Below, in pieces: positions 24,133 to 42,908 of a stretch of 48,598 nucleotides of DNA. Position 1 is the stretch's first letter. Each line of letters begins with the position of its first letter. Under the pieces are notes generated by a model, which was not told the origin of the DNA, ran no database searches, and saw only the letters and a program-made list of their open reading frames with translations. The stretch comes from a virus, in the IMG/VR virus record IMGVR_UViG_3300035698_003454, positions 1-48,598 of that record; one strand, 5' to 3'. Made by a program: the position numbers and the translations under genes.

Positions 24133-24878
24133 GAGCGATTGGTAGTTTTATAGGCAGCCTTGGTGCTAGTGCCGGAGTAGCTACGGGGATAGCCACTGGG
24201 ATGGTTTATGGAGCAGCAATAGGTGGTGTTTCAGCAGCTATAAGCGGAGATAACATTCTTGAGGGAATGTTTAAGGGCGGGGCGATTGGTGGCGTTACTG
24301 GCGGTATTGGTAATGTGTTGTCAAGCGGAGCAAAAGCAGCAGCAACAGCAGCTGAAGCTGGCGCATCAGCCTCTGGGGTGACATCAACAGGGGGTCTTGA
24401 AGGCACCATGTTTGCCGCTGAGAGTGCTGGCACAGGATTAACCACGGGTGGCCTTGAAGGCACAATGTTTGCTGGAGATGTTGGTGGTAATATAATTAAT
24501 GCCGCTCCAGCAGCAGAGCTTGTTAATGGTTCAAGTATTAACAACCCAGGATTAAGTATGTTTCAAAAAAATGCTGGGCTTTTAAAACAAACCAATCCAA
24601 CAAAAGGTGAAATGTTTGACAAGTTAATACATGGTGCCACTAATATGTCCGAAGGTTCAGGAGCATTTTGGGGGCATACTGTTGGTGAATTAGGGCAAGG
24701 GCTTATGGGAAAAATGAGTGCTGATGCACAACGAGAAGCTGAAGAATTAGCTTATCAGCGATCAAGAAAGCACATTAGCCCAGAAGTTGGTACTGCTTTA
24801 AATAGAGTTTCAGCTCCAAGACTTGTTTCTGCTCCGTTATCTTATAGAGAAAAATTACTCGCAAGGGGGCAAGCATGA
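24114..24878 (+). CDS. Gly/Ala-rich putative membrane-penetrating injected protein
   Basis: A 254-residue protein with AAAGGAG before ATG at 24114. Residues 1-75 are extremely rich in Gly, Ala and Ile (GAIGSFIGSLGASAGVATG) with GxxxG-type spacings, typical of proteins that insert in the inner membrane and form an ejection channel (as P22 gp7/gp20 and T7 gp14 do). Two near-identical blocks GGLEGTMFA lie at about 95 and 113. The C-terminus is a polar helix. Overlaps both neighbours. Role by composition and position. Confidence 0.6.
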   Translation: MPAGAIGAIGSFIGSLGASAGVATGIATGMVYGAAIGGVSAAISGDNILEGMFKGGAIGGVTGGIGNVLSSGAKAAATAAEAGASASGVTSTGGLEGTMFAAESAGTGLTTGGLEGTMFAGDVGGNIINAAPAAELVNGSSINNPGLSMFQKNAGLLKQTNPTKGEMFDKLIHGATNMSEGSGAFWGHTVGELGQGLMGKMSADAQREAEELAYQRSRKHISPEVGTALNRVSAPRLVSAPLSYREKLLARGQA

Positions 24879-25399
24879 TTGAACCACAAGTAGAACAAGA
24901 ACAAGGCAACCCCCAGCAACAAACTTTTGACCATTTGTTAGCTAAAGCAATGAAGCTAATTTATAATGACAAAATTAATGCACAATTAATAAAAACAATT
25001 AAAACAGGGGAGCCAGTACAGGCTATCGGAAATATTGTTTTAACAGTTATTGAAAAACTAGAAACATCTGCTGCTAAATCAAACAAACAAATTCCCCAAG
25101 AGATGCTTCCAGATCTTGCTTTGTCTTTAATCGCTCAATTAGTGGAACTGGTAAATGCTGATGGGGAAATTCAGATAGACGAAAAGAAACAATCTTTAAT
25201 ATTTAGTTATGCAGTCCAAGAGTATATGAAAAAAGGGATAGCTTCAGGGAAAATTACACAAGAAGAGGCACAACAAGCTCTTGAATCTCTCAAGCAAAAA
25301 CAAACTGAGACTGCTCCACAACAAGCACAACAAGCACAACCAGTTACACAACCTCAACAAGTACCACAACAGCAACCGACAGGAGGGCTATTAACATGA
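24875..25399 (+). CDS. Gln/Pro-rich virion-region protein
   Basis: A 174-residue protein. Residues 15-140 are helical with repeats of small charged helices. The last about 35 residues are a low-complexity Gln/Pro tract (QQAQQAQPVTQPQQVPQQQP) ending GGLLT. Its ATG overlaps the upstream stop, and its stop overlaps the next ATG, so it belongs to the same operon of injected-type proteins. No family recognised. Confidence 0.55.
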   Translation: MIEPQVEQEQGNPQQQTFDHLLAKAMKLIYNDKINAQLIKTIKTGEPVQAIGNIVLTVIEKLETSAAKSNKQIPQEMLPDLALSLIAQLVELVNADGEIQIDEKKQSLIFSYAVQEYMKKGIASGKITQEEAQQALESLKQKQTETAPQQAQQAQPVTQPQQVPQQQPTGGLLT

Positions 25400-26325
25400 G
25401 TGGATTCGGTTATATTGCAGCTGGGCTATTGTCTGGGGCTGGGAAGGGGATGGTTGCAAATTCTGCTATTAAATCTGATGAAAGAAAAGAAGCGAATAAG
25501 GTTGCTGCTCTAAAAGAAATTGCTGAAGCTAAAGAAGCACATGATTTAGCATTGGAAAAGATACGAAACACAAACAATATGGCAGGTAGACAGTTTACCG
25601 TTGATGAAGGTGCTAAGGCTCAGAAGGTTCAAAATGAGTATACTTCCGATCTATTAACCGCAGAGCAAACACGCCAAGACAATAAAGACGAAAAAAAGAT
25701 AGTTACTAAAGATGTTTACGATGGGGGTACAAGAGAAACATATAGCGTTGACTATCGTAGAGATTCAAAATCTGGAAAGCTGATAGAGGTAGGAAGAACA
25801 CTAAAAAGCGTTGCTAAGCCTGCTGAGATGATCCCACGAGAATCAAAAGATTATGATACATGGACAAAAGATAGAGATAGCCTTGCTGTGCTCAAGAAAG
25901 ACGCTGCTATTGCAAGGAACGGTGGGATTGATAAAAATAGTCTATCTATAATTCCAAACCCACAACTTGCTGCTGAATATGATGCCCAAATAAAAGCTCA
26001 AGAAAAAATGATGCTAGATATGTACAGTAAATATAAATGGTATCAAGACGCTACAGGAGCTACTAAAGAAGCAGCTACATGGAAGCAGGATATGGCTAGA
26101 CTGACGAAGTTATCAGGCATGTCTGAGCCACAAATAACATCAGTCATTGGAACAGATTATACCGATGCTGAAATTAATGATATGGCAACTAACTTTAATG
26201 ATAATAGAACCCAGAAGATACTGACAGTCCTTAAAGATAAGAAGCCAGAGATTTACAGAGAAGTGGTTAAGAGAGCTAAGACAACTAATGGTAAGAAGGA
26301 CGGCCTTTTAAACGTTTTGTTTTAA
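25396..26325 (+). CDS. Putative injected protein, possibly cut short by an in-frame TAA
   Basis: A 309-residue protein with a Gly-rich N-terminus (FGYIAAGLLSGAGKGMV) followed by a helical, charged body. The frame ends in TAA at 26323, but the same frame then stays open for 39 more sense codons to TAG at 26443: GYDPFNKESVDNLSRQEQLQ, followed by a Gln/Arg-rich tail ending GISTF. That tail has normal protein character and fills the otherwise empty gap before the next gene, so the ancestral protein was probably 349 residues. Either a nonsense change or stop-codon read-through would explain it. Confidence 0.65.
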   Translation: MSGFGYIAAGLLSGAGKGMVANSAIKSDERKEANKVAALKEIAEAKEAHDLALEKIRNTNNMAGRQFTVDEGAKAQKVQNEYTSDLLTAEQTRQDNKDEKKIVTKDVYDGGTRETYSVDYRRDSKSGKLIEVGRTLKSVAKPAEMIPRESKDYDTWTKDRDSLAVLKKDAAIARNGGIDKNSLSIIPNPQLAAEYDAQIKAQEKMMLDMYSKYKWYQDATGATKEAATWKQDMARLTKLSGMSEPQITSVIGTDYTDAEINDMATNFNDNRTQKILTVLKDKKPEIYREVVKRAKTTNGKKDGLLNVLF

Positions 26326-26459: not shown

Positions 26460-29400
26460 ATGGGATTTGTAGATAATATTTTTAGTGAAAAAGACGAAGA
26501 GAACGCTGGGTTCCAGCCACTTTCTTTAGATAATGAGTATCAGCAGGTTTTAGAGCAAGAGAAAAGAGACGCTGACCTAGAAGAGCAGCAACGTCAACAA
26601 GAACTTCAATCTGCTAGAGATGCAGAGCCTACTAGAAGCGCACTTGGTGAGGTTGGCACTGGTCTATATACCTCTGCTGTTGATGTACTCCCACAGATGG
26701 CATTCAATGCTCTGGCTGGGGTGGCTTCAGCAGATAGCGATTTAGAGATATGGGCTAACGAACAAGCAGCAGAGCAAGAACGTGATATGCAGTTGCCTAC
26801 CCATGCTCTTCAACAAAATAGACATAATAAAGTAACGAATGCTTTTGCTGCTGGTGCTCAGAGTGCTGCACCTACGTTAGCTATTGGACTTGTTGCTGCA
26901 TTACCTGTTCCTGGGGCTAGACCCGCTGCTGCTGGTATGGCAATGAGTTTGTTCGGCGGGAGTTCCTTTAACGAAACGTACCAGAACATACTAAAAGACA
27001 CTGGAGATGCTGATCTAGCATTCAAGACAGGTCTTAAGACAGGGGTAATAGACGGAACTCTTGATACTGCCATGACAGTAGCTTGGGGTGGGTTCCTTAA
27101 GGCGGCTAAGATTGGTGCTGGTGGGAAGACAGTAATACAAGTGCTTAACAAGATGAAGAACCCTAAAGCACTCAAAACTTTTGCTAAAAACCTTGGGATA
27201 ATGGAAGCATCAGAGATATCAACAGAGATATTCCAAGATATTTCTACTGAGGCGATAGAGAGTAATGCTACTGGTAGAGAACATGCTAACTACATGGACA
27301 TTGCTAAAGAGACAGGTACTGCTACTGCTGCGATGACTCTTATGCTAGGGTCATTAGGTGGTTTTTCACATATCAGGCGTAACATTCACAACCAAGCAAT
27401 TATTAAGACAGTAGAATCAGCAGAATCATCAGCAGACGCTAGGATGGAAGCTGGGTTAAAGATATACAACCAGCTAAAAAAAGTTGACGAAAAGGATGCT
27501 GAGGTTTGGGCTGCTGGTGTAATTGAAGCAGTCGATGAGAACATATCTCTCGACCTAATGAACCCAGGGGATGCTGTTACAGCTAAGAATAAGTTTGATG
27601 AAGCATTAGCTAAAAAGAATAAAACCTCTGAAGAACAAGTTGTTGCAGCACACCAAGCTGCTGAAGAAACTGTACCAATTGAAGGTGATCCTCTTGAAAG
27701 ACAAGAAAAAATCCTTCATCAAGAAACTGCGAATTTGGTTGCTAGTGTTGGAACTCAAAATACTGTTAATCAATTACGGCAAGGACAAACAATAACAGTA
27801 CAAAGCCAAGATGCTGCTATAGATATTTTCTTTTCTCTAGATGCAGCAGAGATGTCAACCCAGACTAAAATAAATGATGATGGTACTGTAACTATCATTC
27901 CTAAGCTCAAAGAAGCACCTGTAGAAGCAAGTGTACCTACGGATAATCCACAAACGGATGCTTACCCTATACCTACTATACCTGGGACAGAAGAAGCTCT
28001 TAATAAGCCTATTTCTGTAGATGATAAACCTTCTGGCGTGATCTTCCAGAGGAATGGTAATACATATAAAACAGAAAAGACTGCTCTTAATGCATTAACT
28101 CTCCGTAAAGATCTAAATACAGAAGATCATGAAATAGTTCCGCATGGTGATGGTTTTGTTATCCAGCCAAAGACATCTATAAATGATGATCTTGCTGGTA
28201 ATCCTGAGGAAGCTTATGTTCCTCCAGAACCAATAGCTAAAGAAGACTTTACTCAGTACAATGAGATCTTTGATAAAGATTTATCTCCTGAAGAAATTGC
28301 TAAAAATCAAGCAGAACATGTAGCTAAGTTACAAGAAGATGATGATGGTGGCTACATATTACAATTATCAAAAGAAGATAGAGAAGAAGTTGATAAAGAC
28401 TTAGAGGTTAAACTAACTGAAACACTTAAGAAGCATGGTGTTGATGTCAAAGTCCTTCCATCTCTTAAGAAGAAATATGGGATTGATGCTCTAGGTGCTA
28501 CTGACGTTGTTAAAAAGATAGTTGCTATTAAAGAAGATAGAGATATTAGCACTCTCCCAGAAGAGACTGCTCACGTAGTTATGGCACTCTCTGGTGATAA
28601 GAAGATCCAGAACCAATTAAACATATTACGCAATGGTATTAAGTCTTGGGATGGTTTTGCTGCTGTTCAAGAAGAATATAAAGATACCTATGGTACAGAA
28701 GCAGAAATCATAGATGAGGCTGTAGCTAAATTAATATCTAGTTCTATTGTAGCTAAAGGCAAGAAGACTCCTCTACACAAACAAGCACTTAATATCATTA
28801 AGGATTTTATTAATTGGATTAAGGCTACTATAGGAAATGATGTTGCTAAGAACAGACTTGCTGCTAATAAAGTAGCTAAAGCCATTCTCAAAGGCAAAAC
28901 AGGCACAACTATTGAGTCTGATAGTAATGTTAAGTTTCAGATGGCTGGAGATAAAAGTGCTACGTTAGATAAGGTTGTTCGTAAGCAGGCTATCTCACTT
29001 GAAAAAGAAGGGAAGACTTCTGAAAAGATATGGAATGAAACAGGCTTTGTTAAAGTTCATGGAAAGTGGAAATATGAAATCAGTGATAAGAACTCAAAAC
29101 TTGTTAAAGGGTTTGACGTAACAAAGAAAAATACCAAGCAAGCTTTACCTCTTCATATAGTCTTAAAGCATGAAACACTTTATCAGGCTTATCCTGAGCT
29201 TCAAGATTACACAATTAAGTTTAATTCTGAAATGGATGAAGGTCATTATGGGACTTTCTTTGCCAAAGACAAGATCATTGAACTAAACAATAGTCTTAGC
29301 GGTGACTTCTTACATGGAGTTATTTTTCATGAGGTACAACATGCCATTCAATCACTAGAAGGCTGGCCTATTGGTCGTGGTGATACATTTACCTATAATG

Positions 29401-30356
29401 ATGAAGTTCAGATGCGTAAAGCATACGACATAGTAGAAGGTGTAGAGAAAGACCTTCTTGCAGGTAAAACATATCAACAATTTTCAGCTAAGTATGATGA
29501 AGGATCAGAAGAGTTAAGTTTAGCAAAAGAACTCCTTGGAGAAGAAAGACAGAAGAATAGCTCGTATAACAATGCATTAATGATGTACTGGAGTTGGAAT
29601 AACCATAAACTCAAAGCAGGAGAAAAGCTTTATAAGAGATCTGCTGGTGAAGTTGAAGCAAGGAATACAGCTCTAAGGTTTAATTCACAGCTAGATGAGT
29701 TCCCTATTAAGACAATGGATGTTGGCCCATCACAACAGTATGTTGAGTTTAATTCTGATGGTAGCTTAGTTCAAGCTTCTAAGACTGTCCAGCCTGTATC
29801 CAAGGTTGGACAAGGAATAAATATTAGTTCTTATGAGGCTGGTCTAGGTAAGAAGCTAACTAATTTTGCATATCTTCCAGTTGTCTTTCGTGGCAAAACA
29901 TATAAAAGATCTGAAGATGCATATCAACAAAATAAAACAAAAGATTTAAGTGATGCTGCTGTTAAGTCTCTGATGGTAGAAGTCTTAACTGCTAAATTAA
30001 CTCAGAATCCAGATCTTGTTAAAGAGATAAATGAACTTGGTGGCATTAAAGCTTTAAATAACTCAACGCATAATCTTATAAAAAATGGTAATGAGATTAA
30101 AAAAGATCGTTGGACAGGTAAAGATGGCTTGTTTATGCAATCTCTTCGTGAAGCATATTCTACCCTGTCTAAGACTGAACAAAAGAAACCTATTGGTAAA
30201 AAAGCTGCTATACCTCCTAACCTAGAAGTAACAGTGCCTAGAATCACAGAAGATGGTGACACAGTCCCGATACAAGTTAATGCTAAAGAAGAACATGCTA
30301 TGTTGACTGCAAAAAAAGATAAACTATCTGTTATCTTGGAGTGTTTGAGAACATGA
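26460..30356 (+). CDS. Polyvalent injected protein: zincin-like and NADAR-like domains
   Basis: A 1298-residue multidomain protein. Residues about 60-310 form a Gly/Ala-rich hydrophobic helical region like those of ejected virion proteins (APTLAIGLVAALPVPGARPA). Around 695-750 is a degenerate zincin-like site, LPEETAHVV, with Glu in place of the first His. At 957-961 is HEVQH, followed at 1063-1068 by GEVEAR, the layout of the polyvalent-protein metallopeptidase-like domain (LPD23 type). Residues about 1119-1240 resemble NADAR: LTNFAYLPVVFRGKTYKRSE, then DAYQ, with the usual H of E-H-A-Y-Q changed to D and the Glu kept. Such proteins are packaged and delivered with the DNA to act on host defences. 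NADAR enzymes remove ADP-ribose from guanine bases. Domain calls from pattern memory. Confidence 0.65.
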   Translation: MGFVDNIFSEKDEENAGFQPLSLDNEYQQVLEQEKRDADLEEQQRQQELQSARDAEPTRSALGEVGTGLYTSAVDVLPQMAFNALAGVASADSDLEIWANEQAAEQERDMQLPTHALQQNRHNKVTNAFAAGAQSAAPTLAIGLVAALPVPGARPAAAGMAMSLFGGSSFNETYQNILKDTGDADLAFKTGLKTGVIDGTLDTAMTVAWGGFLKAAKIGAGGKTVIQVLNKMKNPKALKTFAKNLGIMEASEISTEIFQDISTEAIESNATGREHANYMDIAKETGTATAAMTLMLGSLGGFSHIRRNIHNQAIIKTVESAESSADARMEAGLKIYNQLKKVDEKDAEVWAAGVIEAVDENISLDLMNPGDAVTAKNKFDEALAKKNKTSEEQVVAAHQAAEETVPIEGDPLERQEKILHQETANLVASVGTQNTVNQLRQGQTITVQSQDAAIDIFFSLDAAEMSTQTKINDDGTVTIIPKLKEAPVEASVPTDNPQTDAYPIPTIPGTEEALNKPISVDDKPSGVIFQRNGNTYKTEKTALNALTLRKDLNTEDHEIVPHGDGFVIQPKTSINDDLAGNPEEAYVPPEPIAKEDFTQYNEIFDKDLSPEEIAKNQAEHVAKLQEDDDGGYILQLSKEDREEVDKDLEVKLTETLKKHGVDVKVLPSLKKKYGIDALGATDVVKKIVAIKEDRDISTLPEETAHVVMALSGDKKIQNQLNILRNGIKSWDGFAAVQEEYKDTYGTEAEIIDEAVAKLISSSIVAKGKKTPLHKQALNIIKDFINWIKATIGNDVAKNRLAANKVAKAILKGKTGTTIESDSNVKFQMAGDKSATLDKVVRKQAISLEKEGKTSEKIWNETGFVKVHGKWKYEISDKNSKLVKGFDVTKKNTKQALPLHIVLKHETLYQAYPELQDYTIKFNSEMDEGHYGTFFAKDKIIELNNSLSGDFLHGVIFHEVQHAIQSLEGWPIGRGDTFTYNDEVQMRKAYDIVEGVEKDLLAGKTYQQFSAKYDEGSEELSLAKELLGEERQKNSSYNNALMMYWSWNNHKLKAGEKLYKRSAGEVEARNTALRFNSQLDEFPIKTMDVGPSQQYVEFNSDGSLVQASKTVQPVSKVGQGINISSYEAGLGKKLTNFAYLPVVFRGKTYKRSEDAYQQNKTKDLSDAAVKSLMVEVLTAKLTQNPDLVKEINELGGIKALNNSTHNLIKNGNEIKKDRWTGKDGLFMQSLREAYSTLSKTEQKKPIGKKAAIPPNLEVTVPRITEDGDTVPIQVNAKEEHAMLTAKKDKLSVILECLRT

Positions 30357-30673
30357 TTAAAATAACTAATAAAGAACTGAATAAGCTTCAGATGCAGAAG
30401 AAAGCTCCTGCTCCTAAGCCTAAACCTGCTCCTGTTGTAGATCCTAATATCGCTGCTACTAAAGATTTAGCAGAAGCTATTAAGAGCATATCTATCCAAC
30501 AGACAGAGAAGCTTGATTTATCACCCTTTATCATTGCCTTAACAAGTGTTCAAGAAACACAACTCAAACTTATTGATTCCATGAAGATCAAACCTAAGAA
30601 GGAAGAATGGGAGTTTGCTGTTACCAGAAATAAAAAGGGAGAGATAGAGAAGGTATTCGCTAGAAATGTTTAG
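30353..30673 (+). CDS. Hypothetical protein with a Pro/Lys-rich linker
   Basis: A 106-residue protein. I choose ATG at 30353, which overlaps the stop of the 1298-residue gene in ATGA; an upstream GTG is also open. Residues about 20-32 are a Lys/Pro/Ala linker (KKAPAPKPKPAPVVDP). The remainder is helical, ending in a beta hairpin (WEFAVTRNKKGEIEKVFARN) that I recognise from small phage proteins without a known role. Confidence 0.6.
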   Translation: MIKITNKELNKLQMQKKAPAPKPKPAPVVDPNIAATKDLAEAIKSISIQQTEKLDLSPFIIALTSVQETQLKLIDSMKIKPKKEEWEFAVTRNKKGEIEKVFARNV

Positions 30674-30862: not shown

Positions 30863-33800
30863 ATGGGATCACTTTTTAATTGTTTAAAAACTCATAATTG
30901 TCCACAAGAACTCCGAATAGAAATCAATGAGCTAAAGAAAGCTTATTTAAAAGAAGGATACCAGTTGTCCCCTGCTGAAATTACGTCTGTAGAAAACCTG
31001 CTGACTGAATCAGAAGATATGATTGCTAGTATTGATAAGCAAGTCTTACAGCATAAGCAAGATTATATGGCTAAGATAAAGCCAGCATCTAATGTTCAAG
31101 AAGAAATCCTTGATGAAGATATGTCTGAAGAACAAATAATGTTGGATGACAACTTTGATGGTGAGATATTAGATGAAGATATTGAAGGTGATAACATCGA
31201 TGATGCTGCTCATGAGATTCTAAATGAAGATACTCCAAAGCTTAAAGGCAAGAAGAAATCAGCTAAAGAAGCACAAAAAGAAGTATACGCAGAAAGACTT
31301 GATAAAGACTTTACTGATGAAGAGAAAGCTGAAGTATTAGCTCAAAGAAAAGAACAAGAAGCAAGAGAAATAGAAGATGCTGTAAAGCAAGAAACAAATA
31401 TGAAGAACAAAGAAGCTCGTCAAGCTGCTAAGGCAAAGCAGAGAGCCTATGAAGCAGAACATAAACTACTACCAAGTAGAATCATCTATCCAGCTTGGAT
31501 GCCTTTAAGTGAGAAAGAACGTCAGCAAGTTATCCATGCATATCATCGTGGTGACATTGATGTATTAACAGGTCATGTCAACAAGTCATATCCTGTTGGT
31601 CAGACTTCTGAGACTTCCGAAGCTAAGGCAATGTATCAGTCTGAGGAAGAGACTAAGAGACAGAAAGCAGAGCGTAGTGATGATGCTCCTCTTGCTGGTA
31701 ATAATAGAACTAGAACAGATGAGGAACACCATGAAGCTGTGTTTGGAAATGAAGATGGTGGAAAGTTTACTGAAGCAAACAGAACAGCTAAACCAAAACA
31801 AGGTGCTAAACCTGCTAGGGTTATTGAGTCTATTCCCGCTGGTATAGAACGTACAGGGTCTATAGCTGCATTAATAGAAGATACCCTTGCCTCCCTTAAG
31901 CCTCTTGCTTCTGCTTGGGGTTCTGTTAACCGTGAAGACTTTGCTGTTCAGGCTGCTACTGATCCTACTGGAGTTGAAGTACAGAAAGCTTCTCAACAGT
32001 TTAAAAGTGTACGCTTGCTCCATGAGCTTCTTTATAAGCAGAATAAGAGCAACACAGGCAAGAGATATAACCTTATAAACAATCTAGTCAATGGCAATAT
32101 CAATGATATCTTTACTACAACTGTTCAAACAGTTAATGAAACAGATGATTCTGAATTTATAGATGAGTTTTATAAAGAGAATGGTGAACAGATAGTTTCT
32201 ATTGGTAAGCAACTTGCTAAGTCTAAGATGGCTCCAGAAGCTCAAGCATATATGATTGAAATGTTAAATGATCTAAGTGATATCATGTCTGTTAAAGATA
32301 TAGTCTCTGAGGTTCTTTCTTCTGATGGATACCTAGGCATAGGACAGCTAGATAACATTCCTGAAGCTCTGTTTGATATCCATGCATATGCCAACACCCT
32401 TAACCATGAATACTATGGTCAATATGCTAATGATGTATTTATCCCTGATTATCGCATTGGTGCTGCTATTAAAGCTTTTGCTAATAGGAATCCTAGGCTC
32501 TATGAATATTATGAGCCAGTTCTTCGTGCATTTTTGACTGATCAAACAAAAATATATGAGTTTGTAAAAGAAGCACAAAGTCTTAGGGACAAATGGCAAG
32601 TTGAATCGTTATTTGAAAAAACATTTTCTACTAAAGATAATGAAATCAAATTCAATGAAGAAATTTATAATCTCTCAAGTCTTTTAGTTGAGAAGAATAT
32701 TATTGAGGAATCTCTTTTTATTAAATCAAATAGGAAAGTTGAAGAAGCTGTTAAGAAGGTACAGAAAGCAGCTAATGAAACTGCTTATGCTGTAGACAGA
32801 GATGGTTTTACAACTGTCATAGAACTTATTGAAACAGAGAACAATAAGCCACTTGATGAAGAGAAGGTATCTGAAAGACTTAAGCAGCATTCTCTGTTTA
32901 ACAATATGGGTAAGCAGAATTTTCGTGCGCTGCTTGAAGCCCTTAGAAGCATAGCCTTTGAGAAAGTAGATGATGTTGGTATAGATGCTAATAGATTGTC
33001 TGTTACTAAGCTTGCTAAGCAGATGCTTGAGCAGAAGCAGACATCAAATGAATTAAAGATGTTTCTTAACCAAGCACTCAGGAAGAATACTGTAGTCCGC
33101 ACAAAAGAAAAAAGAAAGATATCAGTTGCTGGTACAAAATATCTGCAAGCTATTGTTAAAGCATACAATGAAAACAAGTATGGGCAAATACCAGAAGGAA
33201 TCTCTGAAGATGATTATTACGTCTTAGATGAAATCCTTAAGTCCATGAAATACGATCCTTATCTTAATCTAAACTATGATCTTTTGGCTACTAGACTAGA
33301 AAAGCATAAGAACATAACTAATTCTTTTAAAGATTCTATTAAAAAGGCTTTTGATACAGGCCGAGTTGATAAAATAAATAGCAGAACTATATCTGAGGAT
33401 GGTGCTGTTCTTATCCAGAAGATGCTCAAGAGTATCTACCTATTAGACAATAGTTGGATAAATGAATCTGAAGGACTAGATCTTAATGCTGAAGCTATTG
33501 ATGAACTCTTTGATGTAGCTGATAGACGAAAGCAGCAATGGCTAGAAGATAAAGAAGAGCAGACTGTTAATCGTGGTAAAGAAGCTACGATGCCAATTAA
33601 GAAAGCTGCAAAAGAAGACACCGATCAAAGAGATAGAGTTGATAAGGCTGAATGGTACAATGACCTTGCTACCTTAATTGATTATGCTCTACGTCCTAAT
33701 GGACCTATTGAACGTGTTGTTGCAAAGAAGCTTTCTAAGCATAAGATAGCTAAATCTGATTTTGCTATGAAAGTAAGGAATGAATTAATTGCTAGAAGAG

Positions 33801-36800
33801 AAAAGCTTTTAGATCTACTTGAGCGTTCATATAGCAAAGATAGTTTCTTTAAAAAAGGTGGTGGTGCTGCTAATATTAAATATACCTCTACTCATAAAGA
33901 AAGCTTGAAAGTTGTTGATGAGTATCTCAAGAAAGATTTAAGCAAAGAAGAAATAAAAGAAGTCCAAACTATAAGAAACCAGCTTATTGCTAATAAAGAT
34001 CTTACTCTTGAAGCTATGGAGCATAAGGGAACTTCTGGTGATCTTATAAGGTATGGTCGGCTTAAAGATGTAAATGAATCAGATAAAGCTATGAGATGGG
34101 CATTGCTAGACTTACGTACTGATATAGCTGCTGAACACTTTGCTAATAACAACCATAGCCTTGTTAATGACTTTAAAGACTTTGAAGATGGTCAGTTTAA
34201 GGACTTAGGCTGGAGCAGACAAGAAGCTTTAAAGAAGTTTATGTCTGTTGGAGAGAATCCTTCTAGGTTTGCTAAGCTAATAGATCAGAAAAGGATGGAT
34301 AACCATGTTGATGTAGCTGCCTATATGTTTGATAACTCAGATCAAGGCGATCCTTCTGGAGTTATTAGTCATATATTTGGTAAAGATATTAGCAAAACAT
34401 TCCATGATATATTTCTATCTGTAGGCAATAAGGTTGATGGTGAAACTAAATCAATAGGTGATAGGCTTCTTGATCTTACACCTAAAAACCGTCAGAAGGT
34501 TAACGCTGCTAAGAAGATATATGATGCTCTGCTGTCTACTAAGTCAGAAGGGGTAGAGATAGCAACAATCTTAAATGAGGAAGGTATTACTCCTGATTCT
34601 TCTGTAGTGATTACTATTCCAAAGAAGCTATCTAAATATGAAATGAAGATAGAGGCTCAAACTCCAAGAGAGTACAATGCAGATCTTGGTGATAAGGGCT
34701 TGCTTGGTAGATCAATAGGTAAGCTAAGAAGCAAGGCTGCTCAGAAGTTCTATGAAAAGGTAGCTGAGTCTTTAGGTGCAAAGCTTATTGTCATTAATGA
34801 TCTTGGTATGCGGTCACAGTATCGTATTGCTCCAGATGGTACTCCAAGTATCATTGTTAATATCCAAGACGATAACTCCTTTAACAATGTTTTCTCCCAT
34901 GAAGTCTTTCATCATATCCTTAATAAATCTTCTATTCGTTCTGCTGATTTCTTTAAGAAGGCTTTGTACGATAGTGTTGTTAACCAAAAGGTATTTGATC
35001 TTGCTGTAGATAAAGCTATGGAGAATAATCCGTATCTATCTCTTAAAGGTGCTGAAGAAGAAGTCATAGCAGAAGTCTTTGCCAAGTCTCTTAATGATAA
35101 AGACTTCTATAAGGAATTGGTTAAGCTCAAAGGTGGAAACCTATTAGCTGCTGATACTATTAATCGTATTGTAGAACATGCTCTAGCAATAGAGAACCTA
35201 CAGGAAACTGAAGGTGCATTTACCTTTGAAGGACAGAGGTTAATCAATCCAGAGAACCAAGAGCCTCTACAGAAACTTATCTTAGATTTACTTGGTGCTG
35301 TAGAAGACAATGCTCCACTTCAAAGCGAGCAGACTAAGTACCATACTCCTTTACTTGGTAGACAATCTAAAGAATCTCTTGAGCAGCTTGCTAGTAACAA
35401 GAAGAGCTGGCTTAAAGGTATATGGAGAGCAATCTTTCCAGAAGGCACTAAAGGTTATAAAGCCATTATGCAGCGCCTTGAAGATATAGTTAATAACACT
35501 ATCAAATATCTTGCTGAGAAGGCTCCTAAGTTTATCTATGCTGACTTTGGTTCAACTGCTATTGAAAAACGTATTGCTGATCTAGTAGTACATGGGGCAG
35601 AAGAATTAGTTACTGCTACAGGATTCCGTTTAGAGAAACATTCTGCTGCCTTTAAAGGACGTACACAGATAGAACTTGAGTATATCCATGATCGTATTAG
35701 AAAGGGTCTAAAGGTTGTCTTAAAGGATGGTGAGATACAACGTCATAAAGATGGAACAGTTAAATATACCAAAGAGGCTGCTCTAGACTTTAGTAATGAT
35801 GAAGATGTAAAGACTGCTCTTAAAGAAGGCATCCCTCAAGAAGTCATAGATGCATTTAAAGACTTCCAAGAGATAGCAGAGAAACAATATAAGAAGCTAA
35901 AGAGATTTGTCCCTAACCTTAATTATGATCCAAACCACTACGGGCAGTATATACAATGGCGCAATAAGGACTTAAGCCCTGTAGATGATAGTATGGGTGC
36001 AGTAGTAAGCTCAATGTCGAAATTAGAGGGGAATACGGGCTTTCTCGAAGAGAAAAATAGGGATAAGTCTGTAGAAGAAATTAAGAAGTCAGGTAGGAAC
36101 TACCAGACCATAGATCCTATCAAGATGATGATGGGATACATGGAAGCAACTGAACGTATGGTTAATACTCGTAAGGCTATTGATATTGCAATTAGCATGG
36201 GTGTTGGTAAAAAATTCATAGATGATTTTGAAGCTAAAAAAGAAAACATGTACGGAGTTGATGATCTTGCTTTTAGTGTTCTAACTGATAAAGATGCAGG
36301 GATAGGATTCCAGCTTAAGGTAGATGGTGTTTTAGAAGAAGATATCTATGACAATGAAGAAGCTGCTTTAGCTGCTGCTAGTCAAATAGATGCAGAGGTT
36401 GAACTTATTAAGACTTCTGTTGATCAAAAGAAAACTTTATCAGGCTGGAAAGTATATTTAGAGCGTAAAGGTGAACTACCTAAAGAGCTTTCTGAAACAA
36501 CTTCTAAAGAAAGAGCAGAAGAATTAGTTGCTCATTTCATGGATAAGAGAACAGATCCTTCACATATGTTTGTTATTAAACCTCATTTCATTATGCAAAC
36601 AAAGCCAGTATCCCTAGAACAGGTTTATTTCTCTAAAGGTCTTGCTCGTATGCTTAAGACAACTGTTGCTTCTGATCGTTTCAAAAACCTAAAGATATTT
36701 GGTATCTCAGGTAGACAGATTCTTGATTGGAAACATCAACTGACTGCTATTGAATTTGCTTTCTCTACATTCCACTTAATGACAATCATTCCAGAAATGA

Positions 36801-38617
36801 CTGCATCAACAATGACTACTCGTTTTCGCAAGGCTAAGGGTTTAGGTAAGATCAATGCTCTTAACCCTGCTGCTGCTATGTGGGAAGGGTTTAGAAGTGC
36901 TAGAGAGGTCAATGCTTTAGTTCGTGCTGTTATGGCTGATCCTAATCTTGCAAACGATCCAAAAGTAAAGAAATTATTTGATAAGTATTTTGGTACTGAA
37001 GATGCTGATATACAAGATATTGTCTCTATGTTCTTTTCTCAAGGTGGGATTGTAGGTCAAGATGCTGATCTACGTACAAGTCTCTATAGCCATGGCAAGA
37101 TGAAGTACCTACCTGTTAAAAAACAACTGATGTTTGAAGAAGGTCATGCTTATATTGGTCAAGAAGGACACAACACAGTCCGAGGGATAGTAAAAGAGAT
37201 AGGTGGATCATTTGCTGCTCATTATCAAGAAACAATAAATCAGATACCAGAAGGTCCATTACGTGAAGCCTTTGCTGCTCTTAAGACAGTTCAGTACGCT
37301 GGTATGCAGGGTATGTCTGAATGGTTAATGGAACAGACTATCCCAATGGTTAAGATGAAAGTATTTATGGATGAGTATACTCAGAATCTTAAACGTGATG
37401 CTGCTGATATTGAATCGGGTAAAAAAACAAAGCATCAAGTAGCATGGGATGTAATTAAGTTTACTGAAGATAGATTTGGTGAGGTTAACTGGAAGAACAA
37501 TTGGATGGACCCAACATTGAAGTCTTCTTTGATGTTTGCATTTAGATCATTCACTTGGTTTACAGGTTCATGGTTTGCTCTAGGTAAAACAGGTATCGAC
37601 TTTGCTAAAGCAGGATGGGCTGTTACTAAAGGTGATGGACAAAATGTAAGACTAACAGAAAAGGGTATGTGGTTTCTTAATGCTATGTTTGTTCATGCTG
37701 TTACTTCTATAGCCTATGCTTCATTGTTTGCTCTTGTATCTGGTGATGATGATGACTTGGTAGAAGATGATCAAGACATTCCATTGTTCTACAGACTTAT
37801 GTTCCCAAGGTATGAAGCTGCTGATCCTTCTAAGCGGTTACTGATTCCTGGTTACCCAACTGAGTTTATAAAGATCTTCCATCATTTAGGATTTGATGGT
37901 TCAGAGCCAGAAGCAACTAAGATGATTACTGGTCGATTTAGTAGTGTCTTGAGTAAGAGCATAGAAGCGTACCAAGGACAGAACTGGAGAGGTGTACAGA
38001 TAGTAAATGAAGATCATCCTCTTCCAATTAAGGCTATTGAGTACGCTGCTCATATTCTCTTTACTCCTCCTATTTCTATTAATACGATGATGAGTGATTT
38101 CAAAAAGGTTGGGTTTGATCCTAAATTGCCTCTTATGAGGATAAGTGGTCTTACTGATGCGCCTGCTTTTGCTAAACATTCTAGGGCAAGTCTTAAGCTT
38201 AATAAACTTAAAAGAGCTACATTCTCAGAGAATGCTGTACCGATTGAGAAAGCAGAGGATCGTGATGATGTTAGAAGGGCTGCTTATAAATATGCTAAAG
38301 GTAACAAGCAACCACTACTAGATATGATTCCTGAAAGACTTACTGATAAACAAGCTATCAATGCTATTAGTCGCTACAAGGTCATAGATGGACAACCTAA
38401 TAGATTTTATGTAGATTATATTGTTAGAGACTTAAGGAATGCAAGTATCCTTCATGCTCTTGCAGGCTGGAAAGTAATGACTGATTCAGAAAAAGATAGG
38501 TCAAAAAGAATTATAACCAAGAAGTATTATAACTATATAAATAGTAAAGATCATTCACAGAAAGAAAAGAATAAAGCAACAATGTTATACATAGTTTCTA
38601 AAGTAGAGGAGACATAA
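30863..38617 (+). CDS. Giant polyvalent injected protein with a metallopeptidase site
   Basis: A 2584-residue protein with AGGAG before ATG at 30863. The first 400 residues are acidic and low-complexity (DDNFDGEILDEDIEGDN). Long helical regions follow. At 1346-1350 is a full zincin motif, HEVFH followed by another His, with acidic residues 48-58 residues on (EEEVIAEVFAKSL) as possible third ligand. From about 1920 to 2560 is a long helical region rich in Trp, Arg and Met (FGISGRQILDWKHQL, MDPTLKSSLMFAFRSFTWF) resembling the C-terminal polyvalent-protein domain LPD38, with one hydrophobic segment near 2270-2290. Proteins of this build are carried in the virion and ejected into the cell. No RNA-polymerase motifs are seen, so it is not an N4-type virion RNAP. 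Confidence 0.65.
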   Translation: MGSLFNCLKTHNCPQELRIEINELKKAYLKEGYQLSPAEITSVENLLTESEDMIASIDKQVLQHKQDYMAKIKPASNVQEEILDEDMSEEQIMLDDNFDGEILDEDIEGDNIDDAAHEILNEDTPKLKGKKKSAKEAQKEVYAERLDKDFTDEEKAEVLAQRKEQEAREIEDAVKQETNMKNKEARQAAKAKQRAYEAEHKLLPSRIIYPAWMPLSEKERQQVIHAYHRGDIDVLTGHVNKSYPVGQTSETSEAKAMYQSEEETKRQKAERSDDAPLAGNNRTRTDEEHHEAVFGNEDGGKFTEANRTAKPKQGAKPARVIESIPAGIERTGSIAALIEDTLASLKPLASAWGSVNREDFAVQAATDPTGVEVQKASQQFKSVRLLHELLYKQNKSNTGKRYNLINNLVNGNINDIFTTTVQTVNETDDSEFIDEFYKENGEQIVSIGKQLAKSKMAPEAQAYMIEMLNDLSDIMSVKDIVSEVLSSDGYLGIGQLDNIPEALFDIHAYANTLNHEYYGQYANDVFIPDYRIGAAIKAFANRNPRLYEYYEPVLRAFLTDQTKIYEFVKEAQSLRDKWQVESLFEKTFSTKDNEIKFNEEIYNLSSLLVEKNIIEESLFIKSNRKVEEAVKKVQKAANETAYAVDRDGFTTVIELIETENNKPLDEEKVSERLKQHSLFNNMGKQNFRALLEALRSIAFEKVDDVGIDANRLSVTKLAKQMLEQKQTSNELKMFLNQALRKNTVVRTKEKRKISVAGTKYLQAIVKAYNENKYGQIPEGISEDDYYVLDEILKSMKYDPYLNLNYDLLATRLEKHKNITNSFKDSIKKAFDTGRVDKINSRTISEDGAVLIQKMLKSIYLLDNSWINESEGLDLNAEAIDELFDVADRRKQQWLEDKEEQTVNRGKEATMPIKKAAKEDTDQRDRVDKAEWYNDLATLIDYALRPNGPIERVVAKKLSKHKIAKSDFAMKVRNELIARREKLLDLLERSYSKDSFFKKGGGAANIKYTSTHKESLKVVDEYLKKDLSKEEIKEVQTIRNQLIANKDLTLEAMEHKGTSGDLIRYGRLKDVNESDKAMRWALLDLRTDIAAEHFANNNHSLVNDFKDFEDGQFKDLGWSRQEALKKFMSVGENPSRFAKLIDQKRMDNHVDVAAYMFDNSDQGDPSGVISHIFGKDISKTFHDIFLSVGNKVDGETKSIGDRLLDLTPKNRQKVNAAKKIYDALLSTKSEGVEIATILNEEGITPDSSVVITIPKKLSKYEMKIEAQTPREYNADLGDKGLLGRSIGKLRSKAAQKFYEKVAESLGAKLIVINDLGMRSQYRIAPDGTPSIIVNIQDDNSFNNVFSHEVFHHILNKSSIRSADFFKKALYDSVVNQKVFDLAVDKAMENNPYLSLKGAEEEVIAEVFAKSLNDKDFYKELVKLKGGNLLAADTINRIVEHALAIENLQETEGAFTFEGQRLINPENQEPLQKLILDLLGAVEDNAPLQSEQTKYHTPLLGRQSKESLEQLASNKKSWLKGIWRAIFPEGTKGYKAIMQRLEDIVNNTIKYLAEKAPKFIYADFGSTAIEKRIADLVVHGAEELVTATGFRLEKHSAAFKGRTQIELEYIHDRIRKGLKVVLKDGEIQRHKDGTVKYTKEAALDFSNDEDVKTALKEGIPQEVIDAFKDFQEIAEKQYKKLKRFVPNLNYDPNHYGQYIQWRNKDLSPVDDSMGAVVSSMSKLEGNTGFLEEKNRDKSVEEIKKSGRNYQTIDPIKMMMGYMEATERMVNTRKAIDIAISMGVGKKFIDDFEAKKENMYGVDDLAFSVLTDKDAGIGFQLKVDGVLEEDIYDNEEAALAAASQIDAEVELIKTSVDQKKTLSGWKVYLERKGELPKELSETTSKERAEELVAHFMDKRTDPSHMFVIKPHFIMQTKPVSLEQVYFSKGLARMLKTTVASDRFKNLKIFGISGRQILDWKHQLTAIEFAFSTFHLMTIIPEMTASTMTTRFRKAKGLGKINALNPAAAMWEGFRSAREVNALVRAVMADPNLANDPKVKKLFDKYFGTEDADIQDIVSMFFSQGGIVGQDADLRTSLYSHGKMKYLPVKKQLMFEEGHAYIGQEGHNTVRGIVKEIGGSFAAHYQETINQIPEGPLREAFAALKTVQYAGMQGMSEWLMEQTIPMVKMKVFMDEYTQNLKRDAADIESGKKTKHQVAWDVIKFTEDRFGEVNWKNNWMDPTLKSSLMFAFRSFTWFTGSWFALGKTGIDFAKAGWAVTKGDGQNVRLTEKGMWFLNAMFVHAVTSIAYASLFALVSGDDDDLVEDDQDIPLFYRLMFPRYEAADPSKRLLIPGYPTEFIKIFHHLGFDGSEPEATKMITGRFSSVLSKSIEAYQGQNWRGVQIVNEDHPLPIKAIEYAAHILFTPPISINTMMSDFKKVGFDPKLPLMRISGLTDAPAFAKHSRASLKLNKLKRATFSENAVPIEKAEDRDDVRRAAYKYAKGNKQPLLDMIPERLTDKQAINAISRYKVIDGQPNRFYVDYIVRDLRNASILHALAGWKVMTDSEKDRSKRIITKKYYNYINSKDHSQKEKNKATMLYIVSKVEET

Positions 38618-41237: not shown

Positions 41238-42908
41238 ATGATAGGCGTAAATTTACAATTATTCGATGGGGCAACTCAGCAAGCGAGCTTATCAAATATA
41301 CAGGCATTATGGTGGGATGTTGAAGAGCCCAAGGATGGGTCAAAACCTGCTGGCAGATCTGATGCTGTAACTACGGATGCGACGGGTTATATTAACCTAG
41401 ATTTATCTAATGTATCTGGTTTGACAGTTGGTAGTAGTGGTTTTTTATTGCTTTATAAACTAGATGACAGTGACCACGAAGATAGCTTGGTATTTTCCGG
41501 AAAAGTGGCAACGTCAGATATCGAATCCGGCATTGATATGTATTATTATGATTCAGGATGGATTCGTCCTGTAGACTGGCCCAGTCTACCGGATAATAGT
41601 GATGGAGTGCAGAAAATATCAGGTTTATTTGCCGTTTACGATAGGGAAACTGATGGCAATAAAGTTATTTTGCGATGTTCTGCGGCTTATCATGTTGTCT
41701 GGGGTGATGGAGCCAGTGAAGATGTTGCGTCAGGCACTTCCATAACACATGCTTATGATTATGATGATGCTGATTTTGCCAACAGTGCAATTATGGGAAG
41801 ATCCGATACACAAAGCGTTACATTTACAGCAGCTACGGATATCGTAAATTGCACTGGACATGGTTATCAAGATGGACAACACATAAATTTTGCCAGTATC
41901 ACAACTACAACCGGCATATCAACATATACTAGATATTATGTTAGAGACGCAGCTGCAAATACATTTAAAGTTGCAACGACTGTCGACGGAGCTGCTGTAA
42001 CATTAACGAATGATGGATCTGGAACGGTATTTTATCCCCTATACAAATGTGCAGTAGTGACTATCACTCCCCAGGCCGCCAATAATTTAACAGCACTTGA
42101 TCTTGATATGGATGTGTCTGGATATCAATCTAGTCAAAAAGCACCTTGGTTAGATTTGCACATTAACGGAAGTTATTTGGAAACACTTGACTTGAGTGTA
42201 TTAACATTTTTGGAGCAATGTGTGATAGGGGAACACGCCGTTACAACTATGACTTATATGTTCAACGGTTGATATTCTCTGCAATCAGTCCCATTATTCG
42301 ATACTTCTTCAGTTACAACTTTTTATAATATGTTCAGCTATTGTTATTCTATGCAATCAGTACCACTATTCGATACTTCTTCAGTAGAGTCTATGTCTTT
42401 TATGTTCAACCGTTGCTATTCTCTACAATCAGTCCCATTATTTAATACATCAGAAGTTACAACTATGTCTTATATGTTCAGCTCTTGTTATTCTATACAA
42501 TTAGTACCACTATTCGATACTTCTTCAGTAGAGTCTATGTCTTATATGTTCAACGGTTGTTATTCTCTACAATTAGTACCACTATTCGATACTTCTTCAG
42601 TTACAACTTTTTATAATATGTTCATCTCTTGTTATTCTCTACAATCAGTACCACTATTCGATACTTCTTCAGTAGAGTCTATGTCTTATATGTTCAGCGG
42701 TTGTTATTCTCTGAGCCGGGCAGCATTCTCAGGAACAGAAGTTGATATTAGTTATCTAAATTGTAACCTTGGCCCTGATGCGCTGGATGAGATATATACA
42801 AATTTAGCCACTGTAACAGATGAAACAATAACGGTTACAGGGAATTGGGGTACTGCATCCGACGATCCAACAATAGCAACAGCAAAAAATTGGACGGTAA
42901 CGGGATAG
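41238..42908 (+). pseudogene. BspA-like (DUF285) repeat surface protein with an internal TGA
   Basis: One reading frame of 557 codons interrupted by a single TGA at 42270. Before it: a beta-rich N-terminal part and a PKD-like segment (YHVVWGDGASEDVASG, then HAYDY). After it: six 24-residue repeats of the BspA/DUF285 leucine-rich type (YSLQSVPLFDTSSVESMSYM, then FNGC or similar) and a short C-terminal beta domain. The TGA stands where every other repeat has a Cys codon (TGT or TGC). Other genes here end in TGA, so the code is standard. As it stands only the first 344 residues would be made, unless the stop is read through. Probably a host-binding surface protein. Confidence 0.75.
42270..42720 (+). 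repeat. Six 72-bp tandem repeats in the surface protein
   Basis: Near-identical 72-bp units coding YSxQxVPLFxTSxVxxxxxM plus F-x-x-C. Several units are almost identical, alternating between SSVTTFYN and SSVESMSY types, so recent unequal recombination is likely. The unit preceding the array ends in the TGA at 42270. Confidence 0.85.

Follow-up and report, generated by a model that had tools for sequence, protein, structure and literature searches.

A 48,598-nucleotide stretch of viral DNA, the IMG/VR virus record IMGVR_UViG_3300035698_003454 (hereafter the window), encodes a polyvalent-type phage protein of 1298 amino acids (aa) with a domain from a divergent NADAR clade. NADAR is an enzyme domain that removes ADP-ribose from DNA bases, and NAD-derived modifications or signals are the means by which DarTG, Thoeris and similar host systems defend the cell. 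We give about an even chance to the interpretation that this polyvalent protein is virion-borne and delivers a NADAR-fold hydrolase with the DNA against host ADP-ribose-based defence. An earlier sequence-only reading had named several motifs in the open reading frame (ORF), and all of them are present at the residues given, namely EETAH at 701-705, HEVQH at 957-961, GEVEAR at 1063-1068, LTNFAYL from 1133 and SEDAYQ at 1151-1156.

Profile comparison and structure prediction place a NADAR/YbiA fold, homologous to NADARs, at residues 1118-1242. The isolated domain matched phrog_1017 with an E value of 1.3e-6, and five phage members of that family (L002-L006) all match the Pfam NADAR model PF08719 at 2e-26 to 2e-18. 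A tblastn search of the domain against giant plasmid proteins gave 3e-7 to 5e-6. When a 20-member alignment of the clade (A6) was compared by hhalign with five authentic phage NADARs, the score was 71.9 (E 3e-11), against 19.7 for the best of 100 column-shuffled decoys and 18.4 for the reversed control. The score stayed at 71.3 when the window sequence was left out (A8) and reached 65.8 for the window sequence alone. The AlphaFold (AF2) model of the domain has a pLDDT of 88.9 and a pTM of 0.84, and Foldseek returned Escherichia coli YbiA (2b3w) as the best and only credible solved match in the PDB (prob 0.99, TMq 0.60). Among viral structures, NADAR proteins lead the list (prob 1.00), and giant proteins of the uncultured phages cr131_1, cr130_1 and cr272_1 stand lower in it. 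The C-terminal NADAR-like domain proposed in the sequence-only reading is thus corroborated by the decoy-controlled profile score, the phrog_1017 match and YbiA, and the predicted structure, on which that proposal had been made to depend, does contain the fold. The window sequence lacks the usual insertion of the clade after LTN and there resembles canonical NADARs and T4 gp30.3; it therefore bridges the clade and these proteins. The gp30.3 profile scored 56.2 against NADAR and, more weakly, 35.2 against the clade, where 60 shuffles reached at most 19.5.

The clade was reached through a degenerate DNA pattern that led to a bridging locus (L009), and then to plasmids, viral contigs and genomes. 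Its signature consists of NISS..GLG.ALTNPTE, E-x-A-Y..(3)..K with the lysine at E+7, AKL.QHP, GG...(C/S)TH and a tryptophan. Judged by sequence, the window domain is a member of this NADAR clade, which is recognised by neither Pfam nor NCBIfam. Direct scans of viral_contigs and genome_contigs returned no close relatives of the 1298-aa protein or of its NADAR-like domain. Proteins of 1400-3700 aa host the clade both in phage contigs (giant ORFs in L021-L031) and in cyanobacterial plasmids (giant ORFs in L014-L018), the latter mostly typed as conjugative; stand-alone copies occur in Variovorax, Agitococcus and a Burkholderiales bin. Some of the cyanobacterial plasmid giants with the clade domain (L017, hit H131) are annotated as 'ribonuclease H', the corresponding part lying outside the stretch that was read. 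DFD[IV]D, a motif typical of two-barrel RNA polymerases (RNAPs), is present in six distinct viral giants (L021, L025, L026, L028, L030 and L031). The phage type of the IMG/VR contigs of the clade is read from this motif, because the terminase phrog_2 was not found in them. In a Fischerella contig (L038:4458-4910), a giant protein has a macrodomain (PDB 5e3b, 7e-9) shortly before its NADAR-like domain. AlkB-like 2-oxoglutarate (2OG)-Fe(II) oxygenase domains lie directly upstream of it in two further loci (L023:1390-2052 and L028:5221-5925), and another occurs in the L026 giant ORF that carries the NADAR-like domain. A DprA/SLOG-like domain was matched weakly in the L030 giant (E 0.005). Macro, AlkB-like and SLOG-like neighbours of this kind would be expected for a domain that acts on ADP-ribose or in base repair.

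Characterised NADARs possess a catalytic glutamate (E43 in Phytophthora nicotianae and E88 in E. coli C7; PMC11543638) and, at E+7, a phosphate-coordinating lysine (K50/K95), for which arginine is tolerated in vitro (PMC11543638, PMC11125620). Their last-strand residue is glutamate or aspartate (E125/D171), or histidine in phages such as T4 with gp30.3 (PMC11543638, PMC11125620). The counterparts of the first two in the window domain are E1152 and K1159 (Table 1), and the E+7 lysine spacing is shared by authentic phage NADARs (A7) and gp30.3. For the last-strand position, H1204 adjoins a beta bridge in the model, and the local profile alignment sets the canonical glutamate three residues earlier; sequence order and the strand layout of the model suggest that H1204 may correspond to the gp30.3 histidine. 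N1135 and K1179 are, like W1218, invariant across the 20 clade sequences. The sequence-only reading had taken the H-to-D change in SxEHAYQ as a possible sign of inactivity, which is not supported: the position after E1152 is variable and non-catalytic, occupied across the 20 clade members by A, Q, E, D or T but never by H and, among authentic phage NADARs, by N, A, E or H, and both E1152 and K1159 are kept. From these residues, the window domain is likely to be an active glycohydrolase.

At residues 957-961, the site does belong to a zincin-like peptidase such as phage "polyvalent" proteins carry, and LPD23 precedes it. Although HExxH by itself arises in 3.3% of shuffles of the 1298-aa protein, the metal-site residues H135, E136, H139, G241, E242 and E244 (A11 numbering) are invariant in 32 aligned phage sequences. 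The HExQHxIQ..EG...AGEVEARN arrangement is common to the window protein, gp16 of Pseudomonas phage AF and a phage from Manatee Spring, and it recurs in hundreds of IMG/VR loci. In the predicted structure, a three-stranded sheet is followed by a helix that contains HEVQH and, further on, by another that contains GEVEAR, which matches the layout described for polyvalent proteins (HExxH with a glutamate from a C-terminal helix; PMC5512222). Foldseek found for the zincin model a local match to the PprI/IrrE metallopeptidase (1.4 to 3.2 Å over 49-56 columns) and no global match, and the core matched DUF6782 at 5e-4, under the cut-off. The earlier suggestion that HEVQH and GEVEAR form the layout of polyvalent phage proteins is supported by LPD23, which exceeds its cut-off, and by the invariant metal site. 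EETAH, proposed as a second and degenerate zincin, remains unconfirmed: EExxH occurs in 14% of shuffles of the protein, so the motif does not go beyond chance, tblastn found no homologues of the region (best E 0.7), and the region did not align with the second zincin of AF gp16.

Table 1. Features of the 1298-aa protein and of the neighbouring ORFs in the window.
Feature	Residues	Window position	Strand	Remarks
1298-aa polyvalent-type protein		26460..30356	+	single ORF; LPD23, zincin, NADAR-like domain
LPD23 (Large polyvalent protein associated domain 23)	827-881	28938..29102	+	Pfam PF18838, E 1.6e-9, 37.9 bits vs cut-off 27
Zincin-like metallopeptidase core	920-1078	29217..29693	+	HEVQH 29328-29342, GEVEAR 29646-29663
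NADAR-like (YbiA-fold) domain	1118-1242	29811..30185	+	profile homology, predicted structure
E1152, counterpart of catalytic NADAR glutamate	1152	29913..29915	+	20/20 in clade
K1159 at E+7, counterpart of K50/K95	1159	29934..29936	+	clade: 17 K, 2 R, 1 I of 20
H1204, candidate last-strand charged residue	1204	30069..30071	+	20/20 in clade
W1218, clade tryptophan	1218	30111..30113	+	invariant, 20/20
Possible degenerate zincin, unconfirmed	690-800	28527..28859	+	EETAH 28560-28574, DEAVA 28713-28727
C-terminal stretch, weak SoxY-like match	1246-1279	30195..30296	+	Pfam 0.0054, TIGR04488 7e-4, both under cut-off
Two ORFs (174 and 309 aa) upstream of 1298-aa ORF		24875..26325	+	usual place of internal virion proteins; gene order only
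2584-aa giant, neighbour of 1298-aa ORF		30863..38617	+	own HEVFH site at 34898-34912

The gene order of the window runs from a GP3-type packaging protein through terminase, portal, major head protein, tail genes and small ORFs to the 1298-aa and 2584-aa ORFs, so that the protein is encoded among the structural genes of a terminase-portal phage, downstream of terminase, portal and major head protein. The source virus is a short-tailed phage, and its terminase is nearest to those of Pseudomonas phages such as UFJF_PfDIW6 and AF. No terminal repeat of at least 12 bases is present in the window. Family searches with the 174- and 309-aa upstream ORFs gave no convincing match. The 2584-aa neighbour is the probable largest ejection protein; its HEVFH site is followed by AEEEVIAEVFAKSL (35066 on), a probable second zincin, and the rest of the protein is unmatched in Pfam, NCBIfam and phage records. 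A frameshift that would fuse the 1298-aa ORF (end 30356) to the next ORF (30341-30673) was rejected, as the latter reads as an ordinary small gene. At the C-terminus of the 1298-aa protein, the SoxY-like stretch reads NLEVTVPRITEDGDTVPIQVNA, with the SoxY motif cut short by the stop codon, and the match is probably due to chance or to a lone beta-strand motif. Elsewhere in the window, an IS3-type transposase (rve, HTH_21) occupies 2229-3032 (-) in the left arm of the phage contig, and a 192-aa ORF (42330-42908) with a strong DUF285 match (2.4e-26) adjoins a tail-fibre-like gene.

Comparison with known systems shows how the window protein combines features of several of them. With phage NADARs (T4 gp30.3; phrog_1017; PF08719, PF08010), the domain shares the YbiA-like fold, the LxNF..P....G..Y...E..(Y/L)Q..K signature with the catalytic glutamate and the lysine at E+7, and a histidine that could fill the place of the charged residue in the last strand. 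It differs from them in lacking a segment of about 27 residues that holds R79, W89 and R93, and in having GG...(S/C)TH...W, as does its clade, where phage NADARs have LxE...D..WG. Phage NADARs also typically stand alone, whereas the window domain sits within a large multidomain protein and is recognised by no Pfam or NCBIfam model. The polyvalent proteins surveyed by Iyer et al. (2017, PMC5512222) resemble the window protein in being large and multidomain, in combining a zincin-like peptidase with an LPD and in their setting among terminase-portal structural genes, but its C-terminal effector is a NADAR domain. The word "NADAR" has 0 occurrences in the main text of that survey, and the literature searched, the coverage of which was partial, yielded no account of a polyvalent protein that contains a NADAR domain. 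DarT1-NADAR (DarTG1) antitoxins have the same fold and the catalytic glutamate and lysine; the window domain, in contrast, lies in an ejection-type protein with no adjoining ADP-ribosyltransferase (ART) toxin, since a scan of the neighbours and of further window proteins, though not of all the small ORFs, found none. Relatives of the window domain occur in ORFs with the DFD[IV]D motif, as in the crAss-like virion RNAP giants (phi14:2 gp66 type), and crAss-like virion RNAPs are fused to large proteins (PMC10770324); the window protein differs in lacking this motif and in coming from a short-tailed phage.

For the delivery of a NADAR-fold hydrolase, the following course may be envisaged. The long N-terminal part would probably anchor the 1298-aa protein in the particle or the ejection channel, and the protein would most likely be packaged with other ejection proteins and enter the cell alongside the DNA. 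The zincin may then release the C-terminal NADAR-fold domain, which would cut the N-glycosidic bond of an ADP-ribosyl adduct, or of a signal derived from ADP-ribose, that an ART, TIR or NADase of the host defence had produced, ahead of any phage gene expression. We infer the self-processing, catalysis and substrate of the protein. In favour of hydrolysis, the H-type phage NADAR gp30.3 acts on guanosine-ADP-ribose in vitro (PMC11125620). Delivery is suggested because the same zincin occurs in AF gp16, a protein of 2213 aa whose gene lies downstream of those for an endolysin and for internal virion proteins, as annotated, and because the clade recurs in virion-RNAP-type and conjugative-plasmid giants.

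Several observations weigh against this delivery of an ADP-ribose hydrolase. PF08719 gave no match to the window domain, TIGR02464 reached 14.6 bits against a cut-off of 73.7, and no Pfam or NCBIfam NADAR model attains its cut-off there; the Foldseek E value for YbiA is also modest (0.083). A spurious resemblance, produced by a short SxE-AYQ stretch in an unrelated domain, would agree with the silence of Pfam and with a Foldseek E above 0.001, but the shuffled decoys and the comparison made without the window sequence led to its rejection, and it, with YbiA the sole credible PDB fold match and NADARs leading the viral list, is highly improbable. A NADAR domain is carried by 0/80 phage loci with the zincin of the window, so the fusion of zincin and NADAR is rare, and no ART or defence gene points to a target. 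Packaging and injection, which we infer from gene order and architecture, concern an uncultured phage. A quite doubtful alternative is that the 1298-aa protein is unpackaged, an ordinary cytoplasmic late protein whose NADAR domain acts after gene expression, which would be in line with viral NADARs being typically stand-alone and in some cases early-expressed, although they may also be packaged (PMC9503650). The structural-gene position, the zincin and LPD content and the fact that the domain turns up again in giants of the virion-RNAP type and of conjugative plasmids argue for packaging instead.

The nature of the substrate also bears on the proposed delivery. In the structure of the P. nicotianae (oomycete) NADAR, R79, W89 and R93 contact the pyrophosphate, a role not stated to be universal (PMC11543638), and the segment with their equivalents is missing from the window domain and the whole clade, a loss that the sequence-only reading had overlooked and that is the true departure from the family; the substrate may thus differ, and guanine-ADP-ribose is unproven. 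The NADAR fold might accordingly be kept for small ADP-ribose (ADPr)-derived signals (cyclic ADPr isomers, ADPr-1''P or NAD-cap products) rather than for ADP-ribosylated guanine, as an injected antidote to Thoeris-like or NAD-based immunity. We consider this unlikely, if worth weighing: the lost contacts suggest an altered substrate, macro and SLOG-like domains are fusion partners in relatives, a set that PMC9503650 ties to soluble ADPr derivatives, and gp30.3, of the H type, hydrolyses guanosine-ADPr in vitro yet gives no rescue from DarT1 (PMC11125620). The AlkB-like neighbours, however, indicate nucleic-acid base repair equally well, and every NADAR tested in PMC11125620 acts on guanosine-ADPr. 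Loss of the same segment, together with the incomplete conservation of the K1159 position, would also fit a non-catalytic, binding-only derivative, for example a sensor or trap for ADP-ribosylated ligands or a purely structural part of the ejected protein. This is improbable, since E1152, H1204, W1218, N1135 and K1179 are invariant in 20 very diverse sequences, a pattern that is active-site-like rather than scaffold-like.

If the delivery of a NADAR-fold hydrolase is correct, a NADAR in an ejected protein would work before phage transcription, at the stage when modification of the entering DNA by a defence poses the greatest threat. For the clade as a whole, we tentatively suggest, at somewhat less than even likelihood, that these domains without the pyrophosphate-clamp segment are a standard cargo of pre-delivered giants in short-tailed phages, crAss-like virion-RNAP polyproteins and conjugative plasmids, and that, together with macro, SLOG-like and AlkB-like domains, they may erase ADP-ribose-based or base-modifying defences in the first few minutes once the DNA has entered. 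Being small (about 125 aa) and well folded, the domain lends itself to direct assay. Pfam and NCBIfam do not see this group, and giving it a name would bring annotation to many giant proteins listed as 'hypothetical' in phages and conjugative plasmids.

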